DNA of 64,000 nt, taken from assembly GCF_000022085.1 (NCBI RefSeq), contig NC_011894.1:141001-205000 (forward strand), written 5' to 3'. The notes beneath the pieces were generated by a model, which saw only the letters and a list, made by a program, of their open reading frames with translations, ran no database searches and had not been told where the DNA came from. The position numbers and the translations under genes were made by a program. Shown here in pieces: positions 28,590 to 36,399 of the stretch (positions are counted from its first letter, which is position 1; the number at the start of each line of letters is the position of its first letter). The stretch is from Methylobacterium nodulans ORS 2060. GTDB taxonomy: Bacteria > Pseudomonadota > Alphaproteobacteria > Rhizobiales > Beijerinckiaceae.

Positions 28590-28802
28590 ATGCGCGTCGT
28601 CGTCGACCTGAACCGCTGCCAAGCCTATGCCCAGTGCTGCTTTGCGGCGCCCGACAGCTTCGCGCTGCATGGCATCGAGGTGCTGGTCTACGATCCGGCT
28701 CCGCCGCCGGAGCGACGCCGGGAGATCGAGCGGGCGGTCCAGGCCTGCCCCGTGCGGGCGATCATGCTGGAGGTCGAGCCGGAGGCCGAGCGCCATGACT
28801 GA
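28590..28802 (+). CDS. 3Fe-4S ferredoxin of a P450 system
   Basis: 70 residues. DLNRCQAYAQC gives Cys10 and Cys16 separated by five residues, and ACPVRAI gives Cys53 followed by Pro, the three-cysteine pattern of a 3Fe-4S ferredoxin. Cys17 is extra. It carries single electrons from the reductase encoded next (8-base overlap) to the P450 encoded third. The ATG at 28590 has GGAGGA upstream. Confidence 0.9.
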   Translation: MRVVVDLNRCQAYAQCCFAAPDSFALHGIEVLVYDPAPPPERRREIERAVQACPVRAIMLEVEPEAERHD

Positions 28803-30093
28803 GCCCGGGATGACCGAGCCCGGGCGGACCGTGATCGTCGGCGCCTCGCTGGCGGGGCTTCGCGCCGCGGAGGCCCTGCGGCACGGGGGCCATCGCGGTC
28901 CGATCACCCTGGTGGGCGACGAGCCCTACCTCCCCTATGACCGGCCACCCCTGTCGAAGCGCGTGCTCACCGGGGAGGAGCGCCCCGACCAGATCACCCT
29001 GCCGTCGCGCCCGGGCCTCGATCTTAGTTGGCGGCTCGGCGCCGCCGCCGTCGGGCTCGATCTCACGGCCCGCGAGGTGGCGCTGGCGACGGGTGACCGG
29101 ATCGCCTTCGACACGCTGCTGATTGCCACCGGCACCCGGGCGCGGCCCTGGCCGAAGCCGGAGGAAGCCGCCCTCAAGGGCGTCCACGCGATCCGCCACC
29201 GGGACGATGCCGAGCGCCTGCGCCGGGCCCTCGCCGCCTCGCCGCGGCGGGTGCTGATCATCGGGGCGGGCTTCATCGGCTGCGAGTCGGCCTCCGCCTG
29301 CCGCGCGATCGGCCTGCCCGTGACGGTGATCGATCCCAATCCGACGCCGCTCGCCTCGGTGCTCGGCACGCGGATCGGTAGCGTCGTCGCCGGGATGCTG
29401 GGCCGAGCGGGTGTCGATTACCGTCCGTCCACGCGCGTGGAGGCGCTGGAGGCGGATGCGGAGGGCCGGGTCCGCGCGGCCCGCTTCGTCGGCGGCGGCG
29501 CGATCGAGGCCGACATCGTCATCGTGGCCCTCGGGGCGGTGCGCAACACCGAGTGGCTCACCGGATCCGGCATCGCGGCGGATCCCGGCGGCGTCTCCTG
29601 CGACGGCTTCTGCCGCGTTCTCGACCGGGCGGGCCAGCCGGTCGACGGCGTGGTCGCGGCGGGCGACGTCGCGCGCTTCCCCCACCCGCTCATCGAGAAC
29701 GGACCCGTCGCCTTCGAGCATTGGGGCCATGCGGTCGCCCAGGCCGCGCATGCGGCCCGCACGCTGCTCGGCCGTCACGACCGGCCCTATGCCGAGCTTC
29801 CGGCCTTCTGGTCGACCCAGTTCGACGTGAACATCAAGTCGGTCGGCCTGACGAACGGCGCCGACAGCGTTGCGGTCACGCAGGGCAGCCTCGCCGAGCG
29901 CCGCTTCGTGGCGGTCTACGGCCGGGCCGGACGCACGGTGGCGGCAATCTCTTTCGATTCGACCCGCTGGCTCCCGGCCTATGCGGCCCGCATCGAGGCC
30001 CGCGACGCCTTTCCCCCGATCCTCGGCGCGACGGACCAGGGCCGCGTCGCCCCCGCCGATCCCGGTTTCCCGTCCCGTCCGGCGCGAGCCTGA
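28795..30093 (+). CDS. FAD-dependent ferredoxin reductase of the P450 system
   Basis: 432 residues. The FAD-binding GASLAGLRAAEALR follows a short N-terminus; YDRPPLSKRVL is the signature of putidaredoxin/rhodocoxin-type reductases; VLIIGAGFIGCESAS is the NAD(P)H-binding loop; VDGVVAAGDVARF is the second FAD motif. It reduces the ferredoxin encoded just upstream. The N-terminus repeats MTEPG, so two starts are possible. It ends five bases before the P450. Confidence 0.93.
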   Translation: MTEPGMTEPGRTVIVGASLAGLRAAEALRHGGHRGPITLVGDEPYLPYDRPPLSKRVLTGEERPDQITLPSRPGLDLSWRLGAAAVGLDLTAREVALATGDRIAFDTLLIATGTRARPWPKPEEAALKGVHAIRHRDDAERLRRALAASPRRVLIIGAGFIGCESASACRAIGLPVTVIDPNPTPLASVLGTRIGSVVAGMLGRAGVDYRPSTRVEALEADAEGRVRAARFVGGGAIEADIVIVALGAVRNTEWLTGSGIAADPGGVSCDGFCRVLDRAGQPVDGVVAAGDVARFPHPLIENGPVAFEHWGHAVAQAAHAARTLLGRHDRPYAELPAFWSTQFDVNIKSVGLTNGADSVAVTQGSLAERRFVAVYGRAGRTVAAISFDSTRWLPAYAARIEARDAFPPILGATDQGRVAPADPGFPSRPARA

Positions 30094-30098
30094 GAGCC

Positions 30099-31340
30099 AT
30101 GCCCGATCCGAACCTGTTCGCCGCGGTCAAGGACCCGGCCAACCGCCCGAATCCCTATCCGCTCTACGCGCGCCTGCGCGAGACGCCGGTCGCGCTCCAG
30201 CACGACGGCAGCTACGTGGTGACGACCCACGCGGCTTTGCGCGCCCTCGTCTTCGACCCCCGCCTCAGCTCCGAGGATCTGCCGCCCATCTCTCATCCGC
30301 GCACCGGCAATCCCTTCAAGGACTGGATCGTCAACCCGATCAAGGACTACGTGCGGACCAAGCACCGGCCCTTCATCTTCCGCGACCCGCCCGACCACGA
30401 CGTGCTGCGCCGCCACGTGACGCGCCAGTTCACGCCCGAGCGGCTGCGGACGATGCACGGGCGGGTCGATGCCCTCGTCGCCGACCTGCTCGACCGCTGC
30501 CGCGATGCCCGCACGATCGACCTCGTGGACCACTTCTCCTATCCGCTCCCCGTCATGGTGATCTGCGAACTCCTGGGCGTACCGCACGAGGACGAGCCGC
30601 GCTTCCACGGCTGGGCGACGCAGCTCGCGACCGCCCTCGAGCCCGATGCCCGCGAGGACGAAGAGACCAAGGGCCGCAACATCGAGACCTTCGACGTGAT
30701 CGCCGCCTACATGCAGGATCTCATCAGGGAGAAGCGGCGGCATCCGCAGGACGACCTCCTGACCGGGCTCGCGACCTACGAGGACCCGAAGGTCGGCCGG
30801 ATGGGCGACTACGACCTGATCGCGACGGCGATCCTCCTCCTCATCGCGGGCCACGAGACCACGGTGAACCTGATCACCAACGGCATGCTGACGCTCCTGC
30901 GCTTCCCCGAGCATCTGGAGCGGCTGCGGGCGGATCCGGAGATCGCGCCCCGGCTGATCGAGGAGCTTCTGCGCTACGAGCCGCCGGTCCATTTCCGCAC
31001 CCGCAAGGCGCTGGCCGACATCCGCATGGAGGGGGTGACGATCCCGCAAGGCGCCCCCATCGTGCTGCTCTTCGCCTCTGGCAGCCGCGATCCGGCCCGG
31101 TTTCCCGACCCCGACCGCTTCGACCCCGATCGCGAGGACAACCAGCATTTCGGCTTCGGCGGCAGCCTGCATTTCTGCGTCGGCGCGCCGCTCGCACGCA
31201 TGGAGGCCGAGGCGGCGCTCGTCGCCCTGGCGCAACGGCTGCGCAACCCCCGTCTGATCGAGGATCCTCCGCCCTACCGGCCCGGCGCTTCCTTGCGCGG
31301 GCCGCAGCATCTGCGGCTCGCCATCGAGGGGGTCGCCTGA
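30099..31340 (+). CDS. Cytochrome P450 monooxygenase
   Basis: 413 residues, soluble bacterial type. The I-helix oxygen-binding AGHETT is at 250-255, the K-helix ExxR in EELLRYEPPVHFRTRK, and the heme ligand Cys360 in FGFGGSLHFCVGAPLARMEAE. It hydroxylates an unknown small molecule. With its own ferredoxin and reductase it forms a complete class I operon, so the whole electron chain is encoded in 2.8 kb. A repeat-2 copy follows the stop by about 40 bases. Confidence 0.95.
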   Translation: MPDPNLFAAVKDPANRPNPYPLYARLRETPVALQHDGSYVVTTHAALRALVFDPRLSSEDLPPISHPRTGNPFKDWIVNPIKDYVRTKHRPFIFRDPPDHDVLRRHVTRQFTPERLRTMHGRVDALVADLLDRCRDARTIDLVDHFSYPLPVMVICELLGVPHEDEPRFHGWATQLATALEPDAREDEETKGRNIETFDVIAAYMQDLIREKRRHPQDDLLTGLATYEDPKVGRMGDYDLIATAILLLIAGHETTVNLITNGMLTLLRFPEHLERLRADPEIAPRLIEELLRYEPPVHFRTRKALADIRMEGVTIPQGAPIVLLFASGSRDPARFPDPDRFDPDREDNQHFGFGGSLHFCVGAPLARMEAEAALVALAQRLRNPRLIEDPPPYRPGASLRGPQHLRLAIEGVA

Positions 31341-31543: not shown

Positions 31544-33295
31544 CTACCGGACGGCCGCCATCCCGGCGGCCCAGGCGTCGAGCGCCCCTTCCGCCAGCCG
31601 CGCGCGGGCGTCGCGGTAGCCGATCTCGGCCACCGCCGCGTAGCTGCGCCACGCCCGCAGGTCGATGCCGGCGAGGGGCGGACGCAGCACCGCGGTCGCC
31701 CGGTCCCGGGCCATGGCGGCCGAGGCGTCGCTCGACACCGTGGCCGCGCGCAGCAGGATCTGGGCGATGCTCGGCATCGCGAAGGGCACGCCCAGCGCCC
31801 GGCGCAGCACCCGCGAGCGCAGGCTGCGCCGGGGCATGGTGTCGAGGGCGAGATCGCTCGCGACGTCCACGGCGAGCACCGTGCCGCGGCCCAGCGCCGC
31901 CATCAGGTCGGCCGGCAGGTTGTTCATGACCCCGCCATCGACGAGCACCCCCTCGGCATCGAGCACCGGCGGCAGCAGCCCCGGGATCGCGATGCTGGCG
32001 CGCAGGGCCGGGACGAGCGGACCCTCGCGATGGACCATCGCCGCGCCGGTGGTCAGGTTCGACGACACGCAGAAGAAGGGCAGCCAGAGATCCTCGATCC
32101 GGGCATCGCCGAAATGCAGCGCGAGCCTGCGGTCGACCTTGGCGCCGCGGGTGAGCGCGGTGATCGGCAGCGTGTAGTCGTTGAGGGGCGAGCTCTCGAC
32201 AAAGGCCGCGACCGTATGGGCCACGATCTCCTCCAGGTCCCATCCCATCGCGAGGCTCGCACCCGTGACGGCGCCCATGCTGGTGCCGGCAACGAGGTCG
32301 ACGGCGAGCCCGGCCTCCGCCAGCGCACGCATCACCCCGAGATGCGCGAAGCCGCGCGCGCCCCCGCCGCCGAGCACGAGGCCGCGCGCGCGCCCGCCGG
32401 CGAGCCGCGCGATCCGGGCCAGATCCTGCGCGTTGCCCGCGCGCGCCTGGAGCCGCAGGGCGACCGGCAGGGCCGTCACGGCCGGATCGAGCGGGCCTGG
32501 GCGCGTCGCGCCCTGCGCGTTGAGGACGACGAGATCCTGTCGCGTCCAGCCCGGCACCGGCATGACGATGCGGCCGGCGAGCGCTCCCCGCGGCGGATGG
32601 CGCGGTGCGGCGAGCAGCAGGACGTGATCGGCCCGGCGCAGGCAGAGATTCGCCCAGCCGGAGCCCGGCGCCTCGGCCGCGTAGACGACCTGATCATGCG
32701 CGGTCTCGAGGGCGTGGAACCAGGTCTCGTCCGCCTCCTCGGGCCAGGTGGCGAGCGCGGTGGAGCGGCCGGGCAGCGCCGCCGCGAAGGCGCTGGCAAA
32801 GCCCGCGGCCTCGACGCCCTCGGTCACGCCGATCACCGCGAAGGTCATCGGCGCGGTGGCGAGCGGCTGCTGCGAGGAGACGCTGCGCAGCCTGGCCGCC
32901 AGGAGCCGGGCGAAATACAGCATGGTCGCCGGATGGCACTCCACGAGATCGTCGAAGGCCGACTTCGACAGGCGCAGGAGGTAGGAATCGCGCAGCACCG
33001 TCGCGGTGGCCGAGCGCGGCTCGCCGGAGAGGAGGGCCATCTCGCCCACGGTTTCCGGCGGGCGCACCCGGGCGACGGGGCGCATCTCGCCGCTCGCCGG
33101 GTCGCGGGCCGAAATCCCGATCGCGCCGGAGACGAGCGCGTAGAGCGCATCGGCGGGAGCATCCTGCTCGAACAGGATCTGCCCGCCCGCGACCGCGATC
33201 GGTTCGAGCCGCTCGCGCACGGCGGCGGCCGTCGCGAGGTCGAGCGGGGCAAGGAACGGGATCTCCGGATGTGTCGCCCCGTCCACGATATCCAT
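31544..33295 (-). CDS. Cyclic-nucleotide-binding patatin-like phospholipase
   Basis: 583 residues from the ATG at 33295. Residues about 15-130 are a cyclic-nucleotide-binding (CAP-type) domain: GGQILFEQDAPADALYALVSG and ETVGEMALLSGEPRSATATV, the phosphate-cassette region. Residues about 300-480 are a patatin domain with the oxyanion loop GGGGARGFAHLG, nucleophile Ser in GTSMG, and catalytic Asp in LVDGGVMNNLP. This is the bacterial neuropathy-target-esterase arrangement. It is the third gene after a class III cyclase and a DUF3095 protein, so its activity may be controlled by a nucleotide made by them. Confidence 0.9.
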   Translation of the reverse strand: MDIVDGATHPEIPFLAPLDLATAAAVRERLEPIAVAGGQILFEQDAPADALYALVSGAIGISARDPASGEMRPVARVRPPETVGEMALLSGEPRSATATVLRDSYLLRLSKSAFDDLVECHPATMLYFARLLAARLRSVSSQQPLATAPMTFAVIGVTEGVEAAGFASAFAAALPGRSTALATWPEEADETWFHALETAHDQVVYAAEAPGSGWANLCLRRADHVLLLAAPRHPPRGALAGRIVMPVPGWTRQDLVVLNAQGATRPGPLDPAVTALPVALRLQARAGNAQDLARIARLAGGRARGLVLGGGGARGFAHLGVMRALAEAGLAVDLVAGTSMGAVTGASLAMGWDLEEIVAHTVAAFVESSPLNDYTLPITALTRGAKVDRRLALHFGDARIEDLWLPFFCVSSNLTTGAAMVHREGPLVPALRASIAIPGLLPPVLDAEGVLVDGGVMNNLPADLMAALGRGTVLAVDVASDLALDTMPRRSLRSRVLRRALGVPFAMPSIAQILLRAATVSSDASAAMARDRATAVLRPPLAGIDLRAWRSYAAVAEIGYRDARARLAEGALDAWAAGMAAVR

Positions 33296-33341
33296 GCGCG
33301 CCCTCCCCCGGCGCAACCGGGGCGCCCCGGCGGCGTCCGGT

Positions 33342-34523
33342 CTACGCGGCGGCCTTGGCCTTCAGCATCCGCGCCGCGCGGGTGTAGCCGCCATCCTCCC
33401 CGTCGATGAAATGCACGTGGTTGCTCTCGCTCGGCACCGGCGTGATGCAGGTCGTGAGCGCCGCCGCCTGCCGGTGGAGGCCGTAGCGGACGAGCCCGGC
33501 CGCCTCGGCCGCCCTGAGCCGCGCTTCGATCGCGTCCGCCGTCGCCGCGTCGCAGTCGAGCGTCATGCGCAGGCCATCGTCGTATTTCTGGAAATCCGCA
33601 TTAGCGACGAGTTCGCACAGGTAGCGGTCGGGCGAGAAGCGGCCGACCGGGACGTGCAGGCGGAAGATGAGAAGCGCGGCCAGGGTGCGCAGCAGGAGCG
33701 CGATCCGGCGCAGGCCCCGCGGCGCCCCGCCCGCCCGCACCTCGTGGGCAAGGCCCTCCGGCGGCCAGCGCAGGGGCGGCCCGCCCTCGGGCAGCGGGCG
33801 TCCCATGGCGGGGGCCGCGGCGACGAGCCGGAGCACCTCCGCAATCACGGCCCGCGTGGCGCCCGGATCGGCCCCCTCTGCCCCGACGACGATGACCGAG
33901 AGGACCATCCCGTGGCGGGCGCGGGCCGGCGAGAAGCGGCAGGAGAGGCCGGTCAGGTCCGGGCGGGCCCCGTCCGCCGGCGGCACCGCGTAGAGCCCCC
34001 GTTTCAGGGCGCGCTCCGCGAAGGCCAGTCCCCCGCCGGTCATCATCGCGTAGGCCACGTGCGGCGACGGGGCGTAGCGGGCCACCTGCAGATCGCAACC
34101 GGCCTCCCGGATCGCCGAGACCGGGACCAGAGCGGCCCGGAGGGTCAGGCCCATCTCGGCCCGGACCCAGGCCACGGTGGCGGCGAGCGCCGCGCGGGCG
34201 GTCTCGACCTCGTCCGGCGCGAGAAGGAGGCTCGCCCCGTCGCCGCCGAACACGAAGGGAATGTCGCGGCCCCGGAGGGCGTTGCGCAAAGCCGCGATGG
34301 CGGCGGCCCCGGCGAAGTTGACCGCCTTGTAGCGGCCGGCCGCGATGGCGGCGGTCGACTCGACCACATCCGTCATGGCGACCCACCATGCATCCGGCAC
34401 CGGCCGGTAGACGGACTCGTCGAGGACGCGCTGGAAGTCGGTGATGGGCGCGATGGCGGCGTAGCGGAAGCCGGCCCCTGATCCGTCGCCCCCCCCGACC
34501 CTCGACATCGTGCCCGCCGCCAT
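33342..34523 (-). CDS. DUF3095 protein, nucleotide-cyclase-like
   Basis: 393 residues of the DUF3095 family. MTDVVESTAAI, GRYKAVNFAGAAAI and FVFGGDGASLLLAP look like a diverged class III cyclase core: DVVxST in place of DxxGFT, and GGDGA at the second metal position. The C-terminal half (FQKYDDGLRMTLDC, CITPVPSESNHVHFIDG) is specific to the family. Activity has to my knowledge not been settled. It sits 76 bases after the adenylyl cyclase gene and 46 bases before the patatin gene on the same strand. Confidence 0.75.
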   Translation of the reverse strand: MAAGTMSRVGGGDGSGAGFRYAAIAPITDFQRVLDESVYRPVPDAWWVAMTDVVESTAAIAAGRYKAVNFAGAAAIAALRNALRGRDIPFVFGGDGASLLLAPDEVETARAALAATVAWVRAEMGLTLRAALVPVSAIREAGCDLQVARYAPSPHVAYAMMTGGGLAFAERALKRGLYAVPPADGARPDLTGLSCRFSPARARHGMVLSVIVVGAEGADPGATRAVIAEVLRLVAAAPAMGRPLPEGGPPLRWPPEGLAHEVRAGGAPRGLRRIALLLRTLAALLIFRLHVPVGRFSPDRYLCELVANADFQKYDDGLRMTLDCDAATADAIEARLRAAEAAGLVRYGLHRQAAALTTCITPVPSESNHVHFIDGEDGGYTRAARMLKAKAAA

Positions 34524-34599
34524 GGCGGCATCTCCCCCGGCCTGTTCGTCGCCACCCTAGCACGGGACGGGTACCGGCCGCACGCCACCACGGCCCCGA

Positions 34600-36009
34600 T
34601 CACGCCGGCCGGGGAACCGTCGGCGGATGCCCGGTCCAGACCCGAACCCGGATCGGCTGGCTGCGCCCGCGCAGGGTGAGTTCGCGGCTGTCGCCGAAGC
34701 CGTCGAGGGCGAGGCCGGCATCGATGGCTGCCGCGAGGCATCCTTCCGAGGCCACGATGCCGCCGCCGAGGTCGCGGGTCGCCTGCTGAAGCCGGCTCGC
34801 CACGTTCACGACATCGCCCACCACGGTGAACTCGACGCGCTGCTGCGCACCGATCGTCCCGACGACGACCGGCCCGCAATGCAGGCCGATCGAGAGGGCG
34901 ACGCAGGGCTGGCCCGCCGCCTCGCGCTCGGCATTCCAGCGCGCCATCTCCTCCTGCAGCGCCAGCGCGCAGGCGAGCGCCGTATGCGGCGCGTCCGGTT
35001 CGTCCTCAAGGCAGCCGAAGGTCGCCATGAAGCCGTCGCCCAGGAACTTGTCGAGGGTGCCGCCATGCGCGAAGACGATGCGGCAGCTCCGCTCGCGGAA
35101 CGCCTTGAGCAGCGCCAGGACCGTCTCCGGCTGGAGCCGCTCCGCCAGCGTGGTGAAGCCCACGAGGTCGGCAAAGAGCACCGCGACCACCCGCTCGCGC
35201 GGCGCACCGAAGCCGGAATGCGCCGTGGCGGTGAGCGCATCGGCCACGTCCGGTGACACGTACCGGGCGAGATCCGCGCGCGCCACCTCGCCCCGCACCC
35301 GCGCCAGCAGCGTCGCCCGGGCCCGCGCCACCGCACAGGCCAGGAGACTGGTGAGCAGGGCCGTCAGCACCATCTGGGTCCACCAAGGGGTGAGCCCGAC
35401 ATAGCGCGGATCGAACACCGTCTTGAGCGCCATCTCGTCCGAGAGCGGGCCGAGCTGCGCGACGACGTCGCGGTAGCGCACCGTGTCGGGCCGACAATAG
35501 ACCGCCACGACGGCGACCGACCACGCCCCCATGATCGAGAATCCGGTCCAGACGACCGCGAGCGGCGAATAGGACAGGCTCGCCTCGCCGAGCAGCAGCA
35601 GGAGGTAGAGGTATTCCACCGCGCGCAGGCGGGTCTGGATCGGCCAGTCGACGCCGAGCTCGGCGGGCGGCGGCAGCACCACGACGAGCGTGACCAGCAC
35701 GGCGTCGAGCAGGATGAAGCCGAGCTTGATCGCGAGCGCGCGCCGGTGGCGGCGCAGCCGGAACGGGATCCAGCCGAGGCCGAAGAACAGGGCCGCGAAG
35801 GCGAGATAATAGAGGTCGCGCGGCGTCGGAACGAGGAAGAGGAGCCAGAGCGACACCACCAGGATGGCGGCCTGCCGGGCCCGGAACGCGAAGGCGAGGC
35901 CCGCATCCTCCTGCTGGCGCAGCACGCGCCGCATGCGGCCGGACGCATCGACCGCTCGCAGCGTGCCCAGTTCGGCGAGGAGCCGGCCGAGAGAGATGGC
36001 CCCGGTCAC
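34600..36009 (-). CDS. Membrane class III adenylyl cyclase
   Basis: 469 residues from a GTG at 36009, which has GGGAGGG five bases upstream; a TTG at 36033 is less likely. About six hydrophobic segments (residues 45-240) precede the cyclase domain. The metal-binding Asp is in LFADLVGFTTLAE, Lys and Asp in LDKFLGDGFMATFG, and VVGDVVNVASRL gives the second base-selecting Asp and the N-x3-R pair. The Lys/Asp pair predicts ATP, giving cAMP. It is the first gene of a likely operon with a DUF3095 protein and a cyclic-nucleotide-binding patatin. Confidence 0.92.
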   Translation of the reverse strand: MTGAISLGRLLAELGTLRAVDASGRMRRVLRQQEDAGLAFAFRARQAAILVVSLWLLFLVPTPRDLYYLAFAALFFGLGWIPFRLRRHRRALAIKLGFILLDAVLVTLVVVLPPPAELGVDWPIQTRLRAVEYLYLLLLLGEASLSYSPLAVVWTGFSIMGAWSVAVVAVYCRPDTVRYRDVVAQLGPLSDEMALKTVFDPRYVGLTPWWTQMVLTALLTSLLACAVARARATLLARVRGEVARADLARYVSPDVADALTATAHSGFGAPRERVVAVLFADLVGFTTLAERLQPETVLALLKAFRERSCRIVFAHGGTLDKFLGDGFMATFGCLEDEPDAPHTALACALALQEEMARWNAEREAAGQPCVALSIGLHCGPVVVGTIGAQQRVEFTVVGDVVNVASRLQQATRDLGGGIVASEGCLAAAIDAGLALDGFGDSRELTLRGRSQPIRVRVWTGHPPTVPRPA

Positions 36010-36162: not shown

Positions 36163-36399
36163 TCAGTGAAGCGTGGGCAGTGCCGAGGTAAAGGGCACGC
36201 GCATCAGTTCCTCATCGTCCTCGTCGCCAACGCAGACGAACCAGTCCGAAAAATCCTGGTGGCCGTAAGCCGTCTCCATGACGGAGCGAGCGACCGCAAG
36301 AGCGCGGTCCCGGGCCTCCTTGAGGTCGGTCACATCCGCCCCGCGGTAGTCGAGGAGCAGCTCGCCGGAGTGACCGCAGTGAAAATACAGGTGGGTCAT
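36163..36399 (-). CDS. DUF6894-type small protein
   Basis: 78 residues from MTHLYFHCG. The pattern (a YFH strand, LLLDYRGADVTDLKEARDRALAVARSVM) is that of the DUF6894 family, which is abundant in Methylobacterium and Bradyrhizobium and has no known function. The C-terminus is acidic (CVGDEDDEELM). A longer start at 36432 is possible. Confidence 0.6.
   Translation of the reverse strand: MTHLYFHCGHSGELLLDYRGADVTDLKEARDRALAVARSVMETAYGHQDFSDWFVCVGDEDDEELMRVPFTSALPTLH

Follow-up and report, generated by a model that had tools for sequence, protein, structure and literature searches.

The stretch of DNA analyzed here, called the window, comprises 64,000 nucleotides of contig NC_011894.1 of Methylobacterium nodulans ORS 2060 (positions 141,001 to 205,000, forward strand; coordinates below are counted from the window start). 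The genome totals 8.84 Mb in 8 contigs, the contig that carries the window having 7,772,460 bases, and the closest named relatives of the window proteins belong to Methylobacterium. Three consecutive genes on the minus strand encode a membrane class III cyclase, a member of the family DUF3095, and a patatin phospholipase with an N-terminal cyclic-nucleotide-binding (CNB) domain, separated by intergenic gaps of 76 and then 46 bases. An earlier note on this DNA had described this layout; its coordinates, strands and domains were all verified, by Pfam and by a second, codon-usage gene caller that returned the same genes. As judged from gene order, the conserved unit is two genes rather than three: DUF3095, followed by the CNB-patatin. 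The genes and their principal sites are as follows.

33342..34523, minus strand: DUF3095 protein, modeled as a single-chain class III cyclase fold of tandem C1-C2-like halves; ATG start, 393 amino acids; first gene of the conserved pair
34368..34370, minus strand: DUF3095 Asp52, first metal-site Asp, in 99/99 sequences
34239..34241, minus strand: DUF3095 Asp95 (FGGDGA), second metal-site Asp, in 99/99 sequences
33402..33449, minus strand: DUF3095 second-half motif Cys359...His369-x-His371-Phe-x-Asp374, family-specific, in 99/99 sequences
31544..33295, minus strand: phospholipase with CNB, NTE P-loop-like and patatin domains; ATG start, 583 amino acids; second gene of the conserved pair
33014..33043, minus strand: CNB phosphate-binding cassette, Glu85 to Arg94
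32279..32281, minus strand: patatin nucleophile Ser339 (GTSMG)
31937..31939, minus strand: patatin catalytic Asp453 (DGG)
34600..36009, minus strand: membrane class III cyclase, IIIb-type, Lys321/Thr395; GTG start, 469 amino acids; outside the conserved unit

Conservation of the pair was assessed in a set of 111 Methylobacterium genomes, with adjacency read by eye from the coordinates of DUF3095 and patatin. DUF3095 occurs in 41 of these genomes, at 43 places, and a CNB-patatin lies directly 3' of it at 20 of the 43; these places are called linked. Flanks were fetched for 37 of the 42 places other than the window; one, L198, ends at a contig edge and has no DUF3095 call, and the comparison set, window included, has 20 linked and 17 unlinked places. 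In 16 of the 20 linked pairs the two genes overlap by 4 bases, while the remainder are separated by 87 bases (two pairs), 28 bases (one) and 46 bases (the window). In the pair at L191 (G305), which overlaps by 4 bases, the patatin is a single open frame with a GTG start. The pair is kept although the flanking genes differ between genomes. A scan of named genomes returned at least 566 confirmed DUF3095 genes among at least 591 stretches; at 5 of the best 80 loci, a CNB-patatin adjoins DUF3095. The two genes are also adjacent in M. bullatum NZ_LR743510.1. Two other arrangements were seen in the genus. At L176 (5751-6893) an unlinked DUF3095 is followed, on its own strand and after 625 bases, by a different patatin-like protein, which has Patatin and DUF3734 domains but no CNB domain. 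At L190 (9337-9789), where the patatin is missing, a small CNB protein stands 98 bases upstream of DUF3095; its cassette is degenerate, with Gln in place of Glu as read by eye.

The first protein of the pair matches the Pfam model DUF3095 with an E-value of 1.2e-137. Its structure model takes the class III cyclase fold over the whole length, as a single-chain tandem of C1-C2-like halves, in agreement with the earlier suggestion that DUF3095 resembles a diverged cyclase. In this modeled fold and in two metal-binding Asp residues it agrees with the class III cyclases. Asp52 and Asp95 never vary in the 99 family sequences compared, and neither do more than 15 further positions; the alignment of the two Asp with the metal Asp residues of cyclases comes through a weak profile match only. 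Lys313, which we infer to stand at the hairpin position expected for the base-specifying Lys, is Lys in 96 of the 99 sequences and Arg in 3. The best match of the model among solved folds is PDB 6yii, at 12% identity, which we take to be a tandem cyclase-like protein of the PaAClp type, in which the C2 and C1 halves are swapped and no cyclase activity is known. DUF3095 differs from it in having its metal Asp residues in the first half, and a search with the DUF3095 profile does not return 6yii at E-values as high as 10. Searches for sequence relatives of solved structure gave no convincing candidate, one being empty and the other returning 1 match at an E-value of 0.56. Mammalian AC9 and sAC offer a second comparison. 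The DUF3095 model shares their C1-C2 pseudo-heterodimer fold over its whole length, and the metal Asp residues of mammalian adenylyl cyclases likewise lie in the first half; it differs in that identity is 8-11% and in that the second half of DUF3095 carries the family-specific Cys/His/Asp motif instead of a recognizable Asn/Arg. The family is large, with 4,557 proteins at E-values up to 0.001 among 7,997 scored candidates in one search, and a search of the available literature found no paper on DUF3095. One alphaproteobacterial genome (G051; L096, L099) has two adjacent DUF3095 genes.

The second protein of the pair scores above cut-offs against the Pfam models cNMP_binding (1.7e-18), NTE_Ploop (9.1e-9) and Patatin (3.4e-31), and its CNB domain retains the ligand-binding residues, which upholds the earlier reading of it as a patatin with an N-terminal cyclic-nucleotide-binding domain. 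With the bacterial NTE family (NTE/PNPLA6-like) it shares CNB, NTE P-loop-like and patatin domains and the Ser-Asp dyad, and is assigned there on its three domains; unlike them, it has one CNB domain, with an intact binding cassette, and is coupled to DUF3095 in the genus. CBASS patatin effectors (CapV, CapE) likewise have a patatin fold and are nucleotide-activated, as is proposed for the window patatin, but through a different nucleotide synthase, the CD-NTase, and the window patatin has a separate CNB domain. Against the CBASS lipase model NF041079 it scores 26.5 bits, where the cut-off is 200, and so falls outside that family. Of 23 orphan loci examined, that is, CNB-patatins without DUF3095, 16 represent one common locus with the same flanking genes. 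This common locus and the NTE P-loop-like domain fit the caution, raised before, that the enzyme could be an NTE-like lipase with a housekeeping role. No residue separates DUF3095-linked from orphan patatins at a level above 90%.

Beside the pair in the window, on the opposite strand and downstream, lies a cytochrome P450 gene set:

30099..31340, plus strand: cytochrome P450, convergent neighbor of the pair; several arrangements with CNB-patatin in the genus
28795..30093, plus strand: FAD-dependent ferredoxin reductase of the P450 set
28590..28802, plus strand: single-cluster ferredoxin of the P450 set

Elsewhere the set stands upstream of the pair on the same strand, or downstream on the same strand past a glycosyltransferase. 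The P450 is found at 19 of the 20 linked places (called at 18, including L191, and identified by coordinates at L185); L166 is a linked place at a contig end. At all 17 unlinked DUF3095 places, no P450, ferredoxin or reductase of the set was called. Because 102 of the 111 genus genomes contain the P450, only its placement is informative, not its presence, and it was rejected as a strict member of the module. Around CNB-patatins generally (window 28590-31340, L174-L197, L201, L205-L207), the set recurs in varied order and orientation, often with a UDP-glycosyltransferase-like gene. Among the orphan patatins, 4 of the 23 (L201, L205, L206, L207) are accompanied by the P450 set and 3 are located elsewhere. 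Because the pair is repeatedly linked to the ferredoxin-reductase-P450 set, its role is suggested to be lipid remodeling, rather than cell suicide.

We give even chances to the reading that the two genes form a nucleotide-signaled lipase pair, in which DUF3095 makes or controls a signal that the CNB-patatin reads. From conservation and overlap of the pair, modeled folds and conserved residues, we infer catalysis by DUF3095, the CNB ligand, gating and the lipid role. DUF3095 would be a soluble, single-chain tandem class III cyclase-like protein, whose first half would hold the two metal-binding Asp residues while the second half completes the nucleotide site. It would produce a signal, or control one through nucleotide binding; the CNB domain of the coupled patatin would sense that signal, ligand binding would open the patatin active site, and the opened enzyme would deacylate membrane or storage lipid. 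The upstream gene would then be an ordinary membrane adenylyl cyclase, which may add a cyclic AMP (cAMP) input here and be dispensable elsewhere. A bolder version, offered tentatively, makes DUF3095 a new single-chain tandem cyclase family with an altered catalytic set (Asp/Asp plus Cys/His/Asp), which switches a CNB-patatin in Methylobacterium, is tied to the P450 set, and possibly uses a messenger other than cAMP.

Several observations weigh against a signaling pair. At 23 of the 43 DUF3095 places in the genus there is no adjacent CNB-patatin (one of these, G289, ends at a contig edge), and at none of 34 broad loci from beyond the genus is there a patatin within 5 kb of DUF3095, so DUF3095 has a role independent of the pair. 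CNB-patatins are likewise found without DUF3095, and the window pair itself has a 46-base gap and no overlap. A DUF3095 tree of 45 rows requires 4 changes of linkage, so linkage has been gained or lost. As for the protein, the DUF3095 profile matches cyclases weakly in its first half (E-value 0.0021, probability 13%) and not usefully in its second. The canonical transition-state Asn/Arg of class III is not recognized at canonical spacing, although other invariant residues are present, and the PDB title of 6yii describes a class III adenylyl cyclase-like ATP-binding protein.

That title makes for a strong rival, one that we nonetheless consider somewhat unlikely. DUF3095 would be a pseudo-cyclase: its tandem fold would bind ATP, and it would act on the patatin through contact or as an energy sensor, with the CNB domain responding to cAMP made by the class III cyclases of the cell. 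Such cyclases are at hand, as the genome has 17 PF00211 matches, and the lack of a recognizable canonical Asn/Arg also fits. Against this, the two metal Asp are invariant along with over 15 further residues, which goes beyond the needs of a degenerate site, and 6yii is absent from the profile matches.

The upstream gene raises another alternative, which we regard as unlikely: a three-gene cAMP cassette, in which the membrane cyclase at the front feeds cAMP to the CNB-patatin in this species. The cyclase (Guanylate_cyc, 3.7e-21) looks active by its residues, since metal Asp281 and Asp325, Asn402 and Arg406 are all present; with Lys321 and Thr395 the catalytic set is complete. The identification as a membrane class III cyclase stands, but the proposed Lys/Asp pair does not. 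In the motif from F394, FTVVGDVVNVASR, the second residue, the base-specifying position of class III cyclases, is Thr395, and the Asp stands four residues beyond it; a Lys/Thr pair is the class IIIb adenylyl cyclase pattern. The intact active site, the shared strand and the 76-base gap are what a cassette would show, and a scan found no terminator-like site in the 76- and 46-base gaps. A promoter scan at the locus found 0, compared to 0.1 in shuffles. A second CNB-patatin of this genome (L199, 7140-10190) also lies 138 bases from a class III cyclase, diverged and convergent with it.

Comparison across the genus argues the other way. The window cyclase has 17 counterparts at 59% identity or more in other genomes of the genus set, one of which, G382, lacks DUF3095; judged by coordinates, it adjoins DUF3095 in 1 of the 18 genomes that carry it, namely the window genome. 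In G336 and G337 the genes flanking the pair are as in the window on both sides, yet the cyclase is absent from the spot, and in G292, G311, G391, G393 and G396 no cyclase match above 90 bits was found near DUF3095 within flanks of up to 1.5 kb. Where 10 counterparts were fetched with flanks, 6 directly adjoin ABC-transporter genes, 2 more lie within a few genes of them, and none lies near DUF3095 or patatin; Pfam confirmed permease domains in two of these clusters. None of the best 80 named loci has the window cyclase beside DUF3095. On this comparative evidence, the cyclase arrived at this spot, or disappeared from it elsewhere, in one lineage. The three-gene order proposed in the earlier note is therefore not conserved, the very outcome it had named as refuting it, and the conserved three-gene module was rejected. 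A general link between CNB-patatin and cyclase was also rejected; a cyclase neighbor was found at the paralogue in the window genome and at none of the 22 other orphan loci. A link of the window cyclase family with CNB proteins fared no better, with 1 of the 10 counterparts (L225) beside a weak CNB match of 26.5 bits on the opposite strand. Directly upstream of the cyclase, a small DUF6894 protein (window 36163-36399) is encoded, which is present in both syntenic relatives as well.

Proximity of DUF3095 to cyclases in general was tallied by hidden Markov model, counting cyclases within 5 kb, in sets related by descent and partly overlapping. Such a neighbor was found at 3 of the best 80 loci in named genomes, 5 of 38 in the genus, 3 of 34 in the broad set and 4 of 5 on plasmids. 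By simple arithmetic, 17 cyclases in 8.8 Mb give a chance expectation of about 2-3%; the named figure is near this, and we do not claim a general link between DUF3095 and class III cyclases. At L046 a different cyclase lies 319 bases upstream of DUF3095 on the same strand, and at L067 and L079 one lies within about 2 kb on the opposite strand. On Rhizobium and Sinorhizobium plasmids (L159, L161-L163), DUF3095 is flanked by class III cyclase genes, one on each side at a distance of about 1.7-2.9 kb, which is probably one inherited arrangement. In four Methylobacterium genomes (L182, L183, L186, L187; domains checked for L182), a CRP-family regulator, a small FecR-domain protein and a class III cyclase of 603-629 amino acids lie upstream of another DUF3095 lineage.

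It is quite improbable that the adjacency of the pair was inherited by descent without function, old neighbors being kept by chance. Within the genomes searched, the pair occurs in a single genus, and the DUF3095 tree groups most linked copies together, as this explanation would have it; the frequent 4-base overlap and the persistence of the pair across different flanks speak against it.

The earlier note had likened the locus to Pycsar phage defense. Like the Pycsar systems (PycC with PycTIR or PycTM), the pair combines, in two genes, a class III-type nucleotide cyclase fold with an effector whose N-terminal CNB domain has the conserved Gly-Glu and Arg. An operon of cyclase and effector, as in Pycsar, is a candidate reading of the overlap in 16 of the 20 pairs. 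It differs in its single-chain tandem cyclase fold, its patatin effector in place of TIR or a membrane pore, and its metabolic neighbors. By PADLOC models, DUF3095 does not belong to the PycC families. The upstream class III cyclase does match PycC models (best 1.1e-32), but it has the IIIb ATP pattern and lies outside the conserved pair. Over its CNB part the patatin protein also gives scores with PycTIR models; its output is patatin, while the excerpted text of PMC11224242 defines Pycsar effectors by a CNB domain with TIR or transmembrane output. Excerpts on Panoptes (PMC12657218) and on anti-Pycsar proteins (PMC9117128) served for comparison only. A search of PADLOC with DUF3095 returned no family at E-values up to 1, and ten flanking genes had no PADLOC match of any kind. 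None of 50,697 phage records matched DUF3095, and 50 pattern matches in viral contigs included no relative. The proposal that infection triggers DUF3095 and an activated lipase destroys the membrane is thus the least probable of all, given these negative searches and the metabolic look of the P450 set and of the common locus of most orphan patatins; a housekeeping role for the pair is more likely than phage defense.

A further parallel comes from the literature alone. In mycobacteria, by the excerpted text of PMC4886424, the unstudied, cyclase-like DUF2652 clusters with the CNB genes Rv2564 and Rv2565, and Rv2565 is tabled, in an excerpt of PMC10865251, as an esterase of the phosphatidylcholine metabolic process. 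The parallel with DUF3095 is that an unstudied cyclase-like family stands in conserved gene clusters beside CNB genes, with an esterase annotation for one of these. The cyclase-like family and the phylum differ, and DUF2652 was rejected as a common partner of CNB-patatin in Hyphomicrobiales, with 0 of 9 DUF2652 loci having CNB or patatin within up to 1.5 kb.

What the finding amounts to is a conserved pair of genes, as well as an assigned fold for a family so far unstudied. Together, the modeled fold and the conserved partner gene provide the first testable function for the large DUF3095 family. If DUF3095 makes a nucleotide, it would represent an unrecognized family of single-chain tandem cyclases in bacteria; if it makes none, it would be another tandem cyclase fold turned nucleotide sensor. 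Either outcome would give a route to asking if cyclic nucleotides really do gate the NTE-like lipases of bacteria.
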